7,424 nucleotides of DNA. It comes from Desulfobacula sp. GTDB lineage: Bacteria; Desulfobacterota; Desulfobacteria; Desulfobacterales; Desulfobacteraceae. The stretch is from positions 1 to 7,424 of the forward strand of contig NZ_JAIOSW010000449.1 in NCBI RefSeq assembly GCF_021107415.1. Reading direction: 5' to 3'. The position numbers and the translations under genes were made by a program. Below are positions 1-6,841 of this stretch, in pieces; within the stretch, counting starts at the first letter, position 1; each line of letters opens with the position of its first letter. Below the pieces are notes generated by a model. The model was given only the letters and a program-made list of their open reading frames with translations. It made no database searches and was not told the DNA's origin.

Positions 1-1311
1 CCCCCCATGGTTTTATCCCAGAGCCGGTTACCGTTAAAATCGGTGGCCACTAGCCAGACATCCAGGCCCCCATACCCTTTCATGGTGGTGGAACCCACCG
101 CCACATATCCATAATCAGTGCGTACCACCTTAACCAGTTCACACTGATTTTCCGTACAGCCAAAAAGGGTTGACCAGATTACGGATCCGGTGTTGTCAAT
201 TTTGACCAGGGCAGGATAGTTTTCTCCTCCAACTTCAAGAGTCGTCACTACAACCGTATCAGTGCCTTCTTGAATCATGGATCGATACCCATGTACACCG
301 CCGTCATATTCCCAGGCAAGATCACGATTCGAATCAAGTCCCCAGACACCTCTGTCATTTGTGACAAGGTAACCGCTGCCGGTTTCAAAGGCTTGGGTCA
401 TCCCATGTCCTCCCAGCGGATAGGGAGGACTGGTGGGAAGAAGCCATGCATTATACCACAGGTCACGATCATTTTGATCTAAGTCTTCCCATTTTCCCCA
501 CTCTATGGTGTCATAGTTATCCGTATCCGTTTTAAACAGCCACCCATACAAATTTGGTGTTATTGTCGAGATTAGCTCCCACTAAAAAATCATAGTTGCC
601 GGTTGTAGAATCATAAAGCGGGGTGAGAGAGGCGCCATAGGAATAATAGGGATCAAGGGGCTGATCCGGGGCAAGCTGCTGGGGAAACTGATCGGCATAG
701 CCCACATCAGTAAGCGTATTGCCGTCGCTGTCAGTTCTCAGCAGCCAGACACCGGGCATATTCTGGTACACTATTTCATGGGTGTCCGGGTCTTCATAGC
801 TGAATTCCATCTTTTTGGTGCCAAGGAGCACATATTCTTCTCCGCCGCCCACAGGAATGACTGCAAGATCGGAAATTCTGTTACAGCTTCCTGCATATTC
901 ATAACTGTTTTTGTAAAGGGTGATATCAGAGGTAAAACTTTGGACATCAATCGAATCGCAGGTAACACAGATACTGGAATCACAGTAGTAATCGTCGTCA
1001 CTGACATAGGAACGGTAAAATGGTTCGCTGCCAACCAACACCCGGTTTCCATTTTCATCCAGTTTATATAAAACGCCGTAGCCTCCTTTTGCAGAGTCAA
1101 AAAGGTAGGGTACGTAAGCACTGACAATAAAACCATCGCTGGTCCTGGCAATGGCGGTGGCCCTGTCCGGCTCAGGGTTCAATTCACCCCAGGCGCAGCC
1201 CAGTGGGTTGGTAAAGGTTGTCAGGGTATCAGCTGCAAAGCAATGGCTGATGAAATAAAAATGAATAAAGAGAAGAAAAATAATCAATGTATTAAAATGA
1301 ATCTGTTTCAC
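1..1311 (-). pseudogene. Secreted beta-propeller-like repeat protein, frameshifted and running off the left edge
   Basis: The gene starts with GTG at 1309-1311, with a purine-rich GGGGGAA ribosome site about 3-5 bases upstream. The first about 26 residues form a Sec signal peptide (hydrophobic core LIIFLLFIHFYFI, then CFA before ADTLT), so the product is exported. The first frame gives 259 residues and stops at 532-534. In the +1 frame coding continues without a stop from 542 to base 1 (about 180 codons) in the same style. VWLLRTDSDGN before the break matches WLFKTDTDN just after it and VWLVATDFNGN near the left edge. These short repeats with a V-W-L-x-x-T-D core resemble PQQ/quinoprotein-like or delta-60-like beta-propeller blades. 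No catalytic residues are recognisable and the function is unknown. The break could be a real mutation, phase variation or a sequencing error. The 3' end lies outside the window. Confidence 0.75.
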
Positions 1312-4225: not shown

Positions 4226-5350
4226 TCAAAATTTTCGCTTGAAATATGTGACAGGGTCAACCACATTTATCTTGCCGCTGGAATAGGAGTGTTTCAGGTT
4301 TGCAACAATCTGGGTTGCTTTTTTGGGATTTAACTTTTCCGCATAATATTTTAAATGCCTTGATAGCCTGTCATCAGAGAATTTTACTTCAATAAGTTCT
4401 TCAATCATCCCTTCTTTTAAGATGACAAAGTCTACCTCCCGGCTTTCCTTATCCCGGATATACCTTAGCTCATACCTGTATCCGTCCCTGTCTTCCAGAA
4501 AATGAATTTTCTTTAGAAGCTGGGTTGCCACAAGATTTTCAAAAACAGCACCTTTGTCCCCAATGACATCCCCATTATCGTAGAAAAAAACTTTGGGCGG
4601 TTTGATCACTGCCCTTGGCAGATTTTTAGTGTAAGGTCGAACTGCAAATACAAGATACATGCTTTCCAGGACGTCAAGCCATTTTTTCACGGTTTTGGGA
4701 GACGCCTGGATTTCCCCTGCAATATTTGACATGACGATAAGGCTGCCCACACGGGTTCTGAGTTGATGGATAAACAGATCAAGCAGAGAAATGTGTCGAA
4801 TTGACTCAAGGTCCCTGATATCCTCTTTTAATACCCTGTCAAACCGTTCTCTGCGCCATCTTCTTGCTTCACGTTCATCTCCGTCAAGAAATGGTTCGGG
4901 AAACCCGCCAACCGTCATTAACCGTTTAAACACTTCCTTTGGGGTCATCTTTTTTGGGTATTCATCAAACCCAAAAGGATGAAGCCGCCAGTAATGATAC
5001 CGCCCTAAAAGAGAATCTCCCCCCCGCCTGTATATGTCAAGTCTTGCTGATCCGGTCACAAGAAAATGGGCAGGTCCTTTTTTGGTGTCGTAGACCCCTT
5101 TGATCCAGTTTTTCCAATTTTTGTATTTATGGAGTTCGTCAAAAACGATAAGGCCGTCATCATCATGCCATTTGGCGGCTAACAGGTTCTGCCTGTCTTC
5201 ATTGTAATCCCAGTTAAAATATCTTCCTGACGGATAGGCCTGTTCCAGAATATTTTTAGCAAGGGTTGTCTTGCCCACCTGTCTGGGACCGCCAATAAAG
5301 ACCATTTTTCGCTTTAAATCTTTAAGGATATTTTTATATAGATATCTCAT
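4226..5350 (-). CDS. AAA_14/DUF4143 family ATPase with PD-(D/E)XK-like C-terminus
   Basis: The 374-residue product matches the usual layout and length of AAA_14 plus DUF4143 proteins. Walker A is GGPRQVGKTT (residues 20-29, K27, T28), Walker B is LIVFDE (67-72) and a sensor-like FLVTGSA follows at 96-102. A helical middle (about 172-245) leads to a C-terminal fold with E271, D307 and E321-V-K323, spaced like the catalytic E, D and ExK of PD-(D/E)XK nucleases. The ATP-binding fold is clear from sequence; nuclease activity is inference. The biological role of this widespread, often horizontally spread family is poorly known. The ATG at 5348-5350 places Walker A at the normal distance from the N-terminus. 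There is no Shine-Dalgarno sequence: two bases upstream begins a 62-bp palindrome holding the likely promoter. The gene is convergent with the secreted-protein gene, 60 bp apart, with no clear terminator between them. Confidence 0.9.
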   Translation of the reverse strand: MRYLYKNILKDLKRKMVFIGGPRQVGKTTLAKNILEQAYPSGRYFNWDYNEDRQNLLAAKWHDDDGLIVFDELHKYKNWKNWIKGVYDTKKGPAHFLVTGSARLDIYRRGGDSLLGRYHYWRLHPFGFDEYPKKMTPKEVFKRLMTVGGFPEPFLDGDEREARRWRRERFDRVLKEDIRDLESIRHISLLDLFIHQLRTRVGSLIVMSNIAGEIQASPKTVKKWLDVLESMYLVFAVRPYTKNLPRAVIKPPKVFFYDNGDVIGDKGAVFENLVATQLLKKIHFLEDRDGYRYELRYIRDKESREVDFVILKEGMIEELIEVKFSDDRLSRHLKYYAEKLNPKKATQIVANLKHSYSSGKINVVDPVTYFKRKF

Positions 5351-5352
5351 GT

Positions 5353-5414
5353 GGCTATTTTATACCGTAATCCAAAATAGTCAAGGCTATTTTGGATTAC
5401 GGTATAAAATAGCC
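5353..5414. repeat. Perfect inverted repeat, 28-bp arms with 6-bp spacer
   Basis: The left arm at 5353-5380 and right arm at 5387-5414 are exact reverse complements; the spacer TCAAGG is at 5381-5386. Within each arm CTATTTT and AAAATAG bound a 12-base core (ATACCGTAATCC or its complement), so the heptamer pair occurs twice in opposite orientation. The repeat ends two bases before the ATPase start codon and 26 bases before the sigma-54 promoter on the other strand. No T-tract follows either arm, so it is not a typical terminator. It may be an operator for the ATPase, an activator-binding site for the sigma-54 promoter, or a mobile-element or recombination site. Confidence 0.95.
5357..5384 (-). 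promoter_or_regulatory. Sigma-70 promoter inside the palindrome, predicted leaderless start
   Basis: On the minus strand TTGACT (5379-5384), 16 bases, then TAAAAT (5357-5362) form a good sigma-70 promoter. Six bases separate the -10 box from the A of the ATPase ATG at 5350, so transcription should begin at or within a base or two of the start codon. The absence of a ribosome site agrees with a leaderless mRNA. The -35 box uses the asymmetric spacer, so only the minus strand has this promoter although the arms are symmetric. A factor bound to the palindrome would cover both boxes. Confidence 0.6.
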
Positions 5415-5439
5415 CGGTTTATTTGGAGTTTTATTTATA

Positions 5440-5456: not shown

Positions 5457-5489
5457 AGATAAAAAGAGATAAAAAGAGATAAAAAGAGA
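5457..5489 (+). repeat. Tandem direct repeat, 10-bp unit AGATAAAAAG, 3.3 copies
   Basis: Three exact copies at 5457-5466, 5467-5476 and 5477-5486 are followed by a partial copy (AGA). The array covers about -9 to +24 of the predicted sigma-54 transcript, that is, the melted region and first transcribed bases. The one-helical-turn period and the slippage-prone sequence are notable. Its role is unknown. Confidence 0.9.
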
Positions 5490-5542: not shown

Positions 5543-6841
5543 ATGGATCAAATATATTTTAACAAAATTAAAGGAACGAGAACTATCGATAAAAGGGAAC
5601 AATTAGAGAAAGGGCAGCGGATTGCATTCTTATCAACGCTGTTAATACTCGTTTTGGCTTTGCTGAAAGCATTTGTCGGGTATACATTCAACTCCCCACT
5701 TTTGATTGCAGATGCCTGGCACAGCGGTGCTGATATTTTAATTAATCTTTCATCACTTATCGGTCTTAAACTCGCGTCAAAAAAAAAATCCAATCGGTTC
5801 CCATACGGACTTTACAGGGCGGAAACCATTGCCTGCCTTTTGATTGGAGCGCTGATTGCCTTTATCGGGGTTGATATGTTTAAGGACGGCTGGCATAAGC
5901 TATTTCTGATGGATTCCCAGGATGGATTCCCAATATTTCCCATTGGTGCTTCAATTGTTTCATGTGCTGTTGCAGCTTTTCTGGCCATTAAACAGCGGGC
6001 CATTGGAAAAGCTATCGGTTCCCAGGCCCTTTTGGCGACAGCTAAAGAAGCCTTTTTTGATATATTTACATCATTATTTGTATTAATCGGTATTGTTTTT
6101 GTATATGCACAGATTCCCTATGTGGAAGGTGCCGTCATCATTTTGATCGCAGTGTTGATCTTAAAGCTTGGGATTGAAACCGCATGGAAATCCATCATGA
6201 TTTTGATGGACGCAGATATGGATACGGAGTTGAAGATAGAGATTGAGGAAAAATTAAACCGGATACAGGGGGTCAAGGGTGTTACCGGGATCAAAATACG
6301 ACGCTCGGGTCCTTTTAAAATAGTCAATTGTATTATTAAAACAATTCCGTCCCTGATATTGTACAAATCTCATGAGTTGGCGGATATTGCTGAAAACATG
6401 CTGCTAACGGAATATGAGAATATTGAATCTGTTTTTATTCATGTTGAACCGGAAAAAGAGATTATTGAAACCGCTATAATACCCGTTCAGGATAAAGATG
6501 GTCTTGAATCCAGGCTCCATCCGCATTTTGGCAAAGCTCCCTATTTTATTATATTAAATCTTGGCAATGGAAGGATTGATATTGATTCATATGTGGTTAA
6601 TGAGTTTCTTGATAAAAAAGGACATATCGGGCTCAATGTTGCAAAATCAATGATTGATTATCCGATTCACCTGCTATTTGTTTCAAGTATTGGTGAGATT
6701 TCATTTCATTTGTTAAAAAATAACTATGTTGATATATTTAAAGTTGATAAACAAATGAAAGTAAAAGATATTATCACTTTGTATAAAGCAAATAAACTTG
6801 ATCCCATGACCCAGCCGAATTTGTCCCAACAACAATTTTAA
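5543..6841 (+). CDS. CDF-family divalent metal transporter fused to a NifX/NifB-like C-terminal domain
   Basis: The 432-residue inner-membrane protein exchanges divalent metal (Zn, Fe, Mn or similar) for protons in characterised relatives. About six hydrophobic segments lie between residues 27 and 220. TM2 carries the metal-site motif DAWHSGAD (H60, D64). In TM5 the usual HxxxD or DxxxD is E169-A-F-F-D173, an uncommon first ligand. Residues about 222-303 form the cytoplasmic CDF dimer domain, ending IHVEPEKE. Residues about 311-413 match the dinitrogenase iron-molybdenum cofactor (NifX/NifB C-terminal, PF02579-type) domain, with the HPHFGKAPYF signature (326-335); this extra domain hints at a metal or cofactor sensor. 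The ATG at 5543 is preceded directly by an in-frame TGA and has no Shine-Dalgarno sequence; no better start with a ribosome site is evident downstream. It is likely transcribed from the sigma-54 promoter at 5440 together with the activator gene 3 bp downstream. The substrate is not determined. Confidence 0.88.
   Translation: MDQIYFNKIKGTRTIDKREQLEKGQRIAFLSTLLILVLALLKAFVGYTFNSPLLIADAWHSGADILINLSSLIGLKLASKKKSNRFPYGLYRAETIACLLIGALIAFIGVDMFKDGWHKLFLMDSQDGFPIFPIGASIVSCAVAAFLAIKQRAIGKAIGSQALLATAKEAFFDIFTSLFVLIGIVFVYAQIPYVEGAVIILIAVLILKLGIETAWKSIMILMDADMDTELKIEIEEKLNRIQGVKGVTGIKIRRSGPFKIVNCIIKTIPSLILYKSHELADIAENMLLTEYENIESVFIHVEPEKEIIETAIIPVQDKDGLESRLHPHFGKAPYFIILNLGNGRIDIDSYVVNEFLDKKGHIGLNVAKSMIDYPIHLLFVSSIGEISFHLLKNNYVDIFKVDKQMKVKDIITLYKANKLDPMTQPNLSQQQF

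Follow-up and report, generated by a model that had tools for sequence, protein, structure and literature searches.

The window, a 7,424-nucleotide stretch of a Desulfobacula sp. contig (NZ_JAIOSW010000449.1), carries on its minus strand the gene of a 374-residue ATPase (4226..5350) and, upstream of its start, a 62-bp dyad (5353..5414, minus strand) that we interpret as the likely promoter-operator of this gene. The gap between dyad and ATG is 2 bp, as the initial annotation had stated. An inverted-repeat search returned arms at 5353-5380 and 5387-5414, each of 28 nt, 100% complementary and separated by 6 nt. The element had been called a perfect palindrome over its 62 bp. This is right for the arms, which have no mismatch, but not for the central 6 bp, which are non-palindromic and hold the −35-like box described below. 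Each arm consists of GG, CTATTTT, a 12-base core and AAAATAG, so the CTATTTT/AAAATAG ends noticed earlier around the core are present in both. With independent bases and loops of 0-14, about 3e-12 such arm pairs are expected by chance in the window. The inverted-repeat score of the window was 27.4, against a maximum of 8.5 among 385 dinucleotide-shuffled upstream stretches of 110 bp and a top score of 10.9 in 20 shuffles of one 1-kb window piece.

Read on the gene strand, the dyad is GGCTATTTT-12-AAAATAGCC-TT-GACTATTTT-12-AAAATAGCC-AC-ATG, that is, two 30-bp units with 2 bp between them, each made of a half-site, a 12-bp core and a second half-site. The four half-sites, all given on the minus strand, are GGCTATTTT (5406..5414), AAAATAGCC (5385..5393), GACTATTTT (5374..5382), which overlaps the −35 box, and again AAAATAGCC (5353..5361), which overlaps the −10 box and lies 2 bp from the ATG. 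Their consensus is AAAATRGYC and its complement. The first half-site is degenerate in several relatives (e.g. L005, L012, L016, L018, L020, and L031). The four centres are spaced 21, 11, and 21 bp apart, a spacing that would place the half-sites on roughly the same face of the helix.

The protein contains the Pfam domains AAA_14 (residues 14-131, 90.3 bits, cut-off 27) and DUF4143 (residues 176-324, 92.9 bits, cut-off 28.1), and both were matched by 86/86 homologues at E <= 1. We take AAA_14/DUF4143 ATPases to be COG1373. An AlphaFold2 model built from 86 sequences reached a predicted local distance difference test score of 90.5, compared with 50.7 from 20 sequences. In the model, helices 207-214 and 218-230 form a winged-helix-like segment (residues 207-230; 4661..4732, minus strand), and helix-turn-helix families were matched weakly by some homologues, for example HTH_36 by 12/86. 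Residues E271, D307, E321, and K323 (4382..4540, minus strand) are invariant in the 86 homologues and show the E...D...ExK catalytic-type pattern of the PD-(D/E)XK superfamily, suggesting a nuclease-like domain. No solved structure matched by sequence at E <= 1. The fold is close to STAND/Orc-type ATPases, and the AAA and winged-helix arrangement is of the SSO1545 type. The whole model was searched and the lists were dominated by the AAA part, so they say little on the C-terminal domain. The top Foldseek match was the origin-binding initiator Cdc6/Orc1 (PDB 2qby, E 1.8e-7), with a whole-model template-modelling score of only 0.33. Cdc6/Orc1 proteins bind inverted DNA repeats through their AAA and winged-helix parts and are not known to have a nuclease domain. 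They act at origins, whereas the element in the window is a predicted promoter. Likeness to the archaeal AAA+ ATPases SSO1545 and PABY2304 (PDB 2fna, 2qen) concerns the AAA and winged-helix parts; we know of no operator for these two. In PADLOC, whose library sets no score cut-off, the protein matched four models of the single-gene phage-defence candidate PDC-S01 at E 1.6e-28 or better (best PDLC04790, 187.9 bits, residues 14-353). The make-up of PDC-S01, an ATPase with PD-(D/E)XK, and its transfer across domains are already published (PMC12988326), and the available portion of that account mentions neither an operator or promoter nor a recognition site or a unit that moves.

Relatives of the unit were collected in one scan of genome contigs, from which the best 80 loci of a longer match list were kept; their proteins are 88-45% identical. 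All are labelled as metagenome-assembled genomes, under the names Desulfobacteraceae, other Deltaproteobacteria, Bdellovibrionales, Bacteriovorax, Oligoflexia, Myxococcota, Gammaproteobacteria, Leptospiraceae, Verrucomicrobia, Calditrichaceae, and Nitrospirae, among others. Counting the window, 77 sequences reached 110 bp or more of upstream DNA, and 37 of these had an inverted-repeat score of at least 10, compared with 0/385 shuffles and 4/234 other open reading frames (ORFs) of the same loci, one of the four being itself AAA_14-like as judged by eye (L004). An ungapped 62-bp profile placed the element near 77/78 genes (score >12), 71 of them at 42 or above, and L070 was the sole miss. The profile was trained on the scored loci themselves, which makes the weak scores soft; three loci had been left out beforehand, L040 and L068 because they lack the 5' end and L076 because its upstream sequence is too short. 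In 43/77 the element lies exactly at −64. At L050:2895-2988 the gene is preceded by three consecutive 30-bp units, not two.

The arms of the element covary. In an alignment of 69 elements, from which 7 elements scoring <42 and the near-duplicates L007 and L019 were left out, both sides of the 28 pairs changed in 250 cells, compared with 110 after shuffling, and the covariation score was 0.335 against 0.162 for shuffled and at most 0.120 for slid arms. Full symmetry (28/28) was found in 2/69 elements, the window and L060, and the commonest value was 19/28. Since most elements are imperfect and their arms covary, the earlier proposal that perfect arms point to recent conversion is not supported. 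Within a locus the two 12-base cores agree as inverted copies at a mean of 7.8/12 positions, compared with 5.05 between loci, and in four elements (e.g. L065 and L036) they agree as direct copies at 11/12 or more. The basic unit would therefore be the 30-bp piece, used twice.

The element is tied to AAA_14/DUF4143 genes also at the genome scale, as the initial annotation had anticipated. A covariance model (R1) found it at 69 places in 33 whole genomes, 35 of them model seeds, with an overlapping second match at G027:C9 merged. At 61/69 places, or 26/34 when seeds are set aside, it lies 2-111 bp upstream of a match to the ATPase family (A1). At L112 the distance is 173 bp, to a gene whose AAA_14 and DUF4143 matches both exceed the cut-off, and at L115 the element stands at an 82-codon AAA_14 fragment. 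Under stricter filters, 59 genomes of the phylum gave 12 places (3 seeds), 9 of which are upstream of a DUF4143 match and one of which (G016:C214) precedes a broken copy. Among 20 linked copies that were fetched, two were seeds; 16 of the 18 others are exactly 62 bp long with different letters, and 12 carry TTGAC. Copies are thus mostly not scattered, and the element is present at orthologues. No match to the 261 bp around the dyad was found in plasmid records, and 37 pattern matches in viral contigs included no relative. Two individual copies can be recorded here. At L119:1907-1990, one of the 61, the element precedes an ATPase remnant that has an internal deletion but retains the start and the C-terminus. 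L111:1680-1741 is a well-scoring element (50 bits) that stands alone, and the ORFs next to it include no ATPase.

A sigma-70-like promoter is predicted inside the dyad. Its −35-like box, TTGACT (5379..5384, minus strand), occupies the palindrome centre, and its −10-like box, TAAAAT (5357..5362, minus strand), lies in the last half-site after a 16-bp spacer, so that the predicted +1 falls at the ATG and the ATPase gene would be transcribed as a leaderless mRNA. We counted this arrangement in the 76 of 78 elements that scored 29 or more. The start codon is within 12 bp in 65 of the 76, and 55 of these 65 have TTGAC at the centre, compared with 2 of the 11 more distant elements (Fisher p 2.7e-5). 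The predicted +1 lies no more than 2 bases from the start codon in 54 of the 55 near elements with TTGAC. Where TTGAC is absent the centre is often CG-like, e.g. GACGCGTC; the TTGAC therefore looks like a promoter constraint laid over a symmetric binding site.

The position of this promoter is the chief reason for which we prefer a role of the dyad in DNA. A role in RNA, as a hairpin or attenuator, could draw on the strong hairpin predicted for it (−47.6 kcal/mol, z −9.6) and on arm mismatches over the 28 pairs, in which G-U cells slightly outnumber A-C cells (133 against 105, p 0.08). However, the dyad would not be transcribed from a promoter located within it, which makes this role very improbable; the two units are moreover direct copies at some loci, and Rfam gave 0 matches at gathering score.

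In the comparison of ATPase residues with half-site bases, the winged helix was the expected place of covariation; the strongest column was instead in the nuclease-like domain. Residue 303 (codon 4442..4444, minus strand), which is Ser in the window and mostly Gly, or Lys/His, elsewhere, covaries with base n of AAAATRGnC, a C at the majority of loci and a T at others. The residue lies in the turn before D307, between model strands 293-299 and 305-312, beside the PD-(D/E)XK-like active site. Among the 67 loci with a clear type, Lys/His303 goes with T in 15/16 (the exception is L063), and the other 51 have C in 45, A in 4, and T in 2 (L005 and L067). On the trees, the residue class changes 8 times and the site type 9 times, and 6 of these changes coincide (P 3.4e-7); with the alternative resolution of parsimony ties on the tree from residues 1-260, 7 coincide (P 2.4e-9). 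Once every column had received its best grouping, residue 303 came top of the 246 that showed any coincidence, with a runner-up at 4.6e-5. When 15 half-site positions were combined with all groupings, two pairs were prominent, that of residue 303 (P 3e-7) and that of residue 362 and half-site position 2 (P 4e-7). In non-seed paralogues, 9/10 scored sites that go with Lys, Arg or Gln have T.

The switch of residue 303 with the half-site base suggests that the ATPase probably reads its own operator through the nuclease-like domain. Together with the gene linkage, this covariation makes the repeat probably what the initial annotation had offered as two of its options, a recognition site of the ATPase and an autoregulatory operator. 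It also bears on a host regulator as the protein that binds the dyad. Nothing specific speaks for such a regulator, and we consider it extremely unlikely, as the site is conserved between loci labelled as different phyla, is found mostly at these ATPase genes and covaries with an ATPase residue.

Other DUF4143 subfamilies have different repeats at the gene start, for example TTTACTCATGAGTAAA and TTTTGCC...GGCAAAA types. In a sample of the phylum, 31/80 DUF4143 genes had an inverted-repeat score of at least 8, compared with 11/247 other ORFs and 4/240 shuffles. The sample comprised 90 DUF4143 loci, of which 80 genes were scored and the rest had no recognised Walker motif, start or upstream sequence; at least 2 genes were fetched twice. 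A gammaproteobacterial sample gave 11/29 DUF4143 genes with a repeat, compared with 3/27 other ORFs, and the pooled enrichment had a Fisher p of 4e-15. The enrichment is clear, but on this score the majority of such genes lack a clear palindrome. At L004:1481-1590 (plus strand) a second, downstream AAA_14-like gene has a very different palindrome (GTGATATAAATCACAT...) ahead of its own TTGACA.

Taken together, these results make it likely that the dyad is a composite promoter-operator of the adjacent ATPase, which travels with the gene and is read and repressed by the gene's own product. We infer the binding of the ATPase, the sign of the regulation and any cleavage from sequence and model. The ATPase, with its AAA+ part, winged helix and C-terminal PD-(D/E)XK-like domain, would assemble on the four half-sites, which would be read at least partly via the 303 turn and possibly also via the winged helix. 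Oligomerisation through the AAA+ part would cover the −35, the −10 and the +1. With the polymerase blocked, a single gene would repress itself with no need of a host regulator, and a 1.2-kb unit of operator and gene could thus function on arrival in a new genome. Candidate signals that might relieve the repression are the ATP state, phage DNA, and DNA ends. In toxin-antitoxin systems and restriction-modification controllers, a protein encoded beside the operator represses its own promoter in a similar manner. Those systems use a separate small DNA-binding protein or antitoxin, whereas here one ATPase/nuclease-like protein probably does all. The opposite sign is conceivable too. The ATPase may activate the gene as a STAND-like switch, or repress it until it is titrated by phage or other foreign DNA with similar sites, and both the fold near STAND/Orc-type ATPases and the listing of PDC-S01 as a defence candidate are in line with this. 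However, half-site 3 overlaps the −35 and half-site 4 the −10, which is the usual position for repression, and we consider activation or titration quite unlikely.

Several results weigh against the self-repressed promoter-operator. The grouping of residue 303 was chosen post hoc, and leaving the residues unrecoded weakens P to about 0.03. In the 18 non-seed paralogues, of which 16 were scored, Gly303 goes with T in 4/6 and no clear new C-type site was found; the residue-base rule is therefore local to the close subfamily. A promoter scan found 4 sites compared with 4.0 in shuffles, no excess, and it is because such sites are no commoner than in shuffles that the promoter evidence is the conservation. 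Eleven loci have the element at a distance of more than 12 bp from the start, and most of these lack TTGAC. Six of the 69 copies in whole genomes (five at 27-33 bits and L111 at 50 bits) have no such ATPase among the nearby ORFs inspected, and two of the 12 places in the phylum genomes are unlinked. No clear inverted repeat was seen at 49 of the 80 sampled DUF4143 genes of the phylum. Finally, the G-U and A-C mismatch counts neither show nor exclude a constraint on RNA.

The unit of element and gene occurs in unrelated surroundings. Fifteen pairs of loci have at least 80% nucleotide identity over the unit, and 12 of them have no flank nucleotide homology beyond 24 bp, although some flanks are short and L074/L080 has one weak translated match. 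Such pairs include L009/L029 (93.9%), L013/L020 (93.2%), L013/L015 (90.9%), and the window with L001 (86.2%); flanks are shared by L007/L009 (left), L010/L012, and L017/L019. In the 12 pairs, homology starts no further than 24 bp from the element edge and stops no further than 33 bp from the stop codon. An alignment of the window to its two nearest flank relatives (87-88% nucleotide identity) extends only from 5418 onward, which puts the junction at 5415..5418, 4 bp outside the dyad. No ATPase is present at that place in either relative, and both genomes have other members of the family elsewhere. The left flank of the window is not orthologous in this comparison, and its left-hand gene was found in neither of the two genomes. 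L007/L009 (95%) was considered as a moved unit and rejected: the two share an orthologous left flank, into which about 220 bp are inserted in L009. The inserted stretch contains what looks like the 3' end of a further ATPase copy, a remnant next to the intact unit.

The initial annotation had also named a mobility site. Operator and gene are indeed found together in unrelated contexts, but the dyad stands at one end only, with no copy found at the right end. These data bear on an alternative in which the dyad serves above all for recombination or nicking: the PD-(D/E)XK-like domain would cut or nick the half-sites, the unit would spread in this way, and regulation would be secondary. The invariant catalytic-type residues, the proximity of residue 303 to the active site, the start of homology near the dyad edge, and the retention of the dyad by a truncated and an internally deleted copy all agree with it. 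However, the 60 bp after the stop codon show no half-site enrichment above background, and a search of 86 genomes for L001 and of 85 for L015 found no clean empty site. Relatives of L001 align from 3-7 bp past the stop codon only to the end of a convergent gene, and have other genes between the flanks where both flanks are seen. Inverted repeats at both ends, as in an insertion sequence, are lacking, and only AAA_14 and DUF4143 exceed the Pfam cut-offs in the window protein, with no transposase domain. The degeneracy of half-site 1 in several loci and the promoter within the dyad, which points to regulation, also speak against a cutting site, and we consider it unlikely as the main function.

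As for significance, a promoter-operator read by the ATPase itself would give PDC-S01 a concrete DNA target and a testable mode of control. A private operator is a possible reason why many paralogues coexist in one genome. PDC-S01 ranks as the fourth most common defence over all prokaryotes, and most such candidates still await experimental validation, according to the accessible part of its description (PMC12988326). Its abundance may partly reflect mobility of the unit rather than defence. PDC-S01, its ATPase and PD-(D/E)XK make-up and its spread are already known, and the partial texts available on the DUF4143/AAA_14, PDC-S01, and SSO1545 families describe no operator for these genes. A bolder and rather unlikely version would make this candidate, one of the commonest single-gene ones in defence, a minimal self-mobilising unit of about 1.2 kb, in which a sequence-specific AAA+/nuclease uses its PD-(D/E)XK domain to recognise, and perhaps to nick, the dyad of its own promoter. 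One site would then serve as autoregulatory switch, as identity tag against paralogues of the same genome and as moving end, and each subfamily would have a private protein-operator code.

Elsewhere in the window, a 10-bp unit, gataaaaaga, is repeated three times in tandem just outside the dyad (5458-5487) and by eye is absent there in L241 and L242. The gene at 5543-6841 (plus strand) encodes a cation-efflux transporter that carries a Nitro_FeMo-Co (NifX-like) domain at its C-terminus. A 17-bp inverted repeat (94%; 1516-1532 and 1611-1627) lies between divergent genes, together with other AT-rich repeats. The overlapping ORFs 3-551 and 532-1311 (minus strand) are in different frames and, by eye, look like one gene frameshifted near 540.
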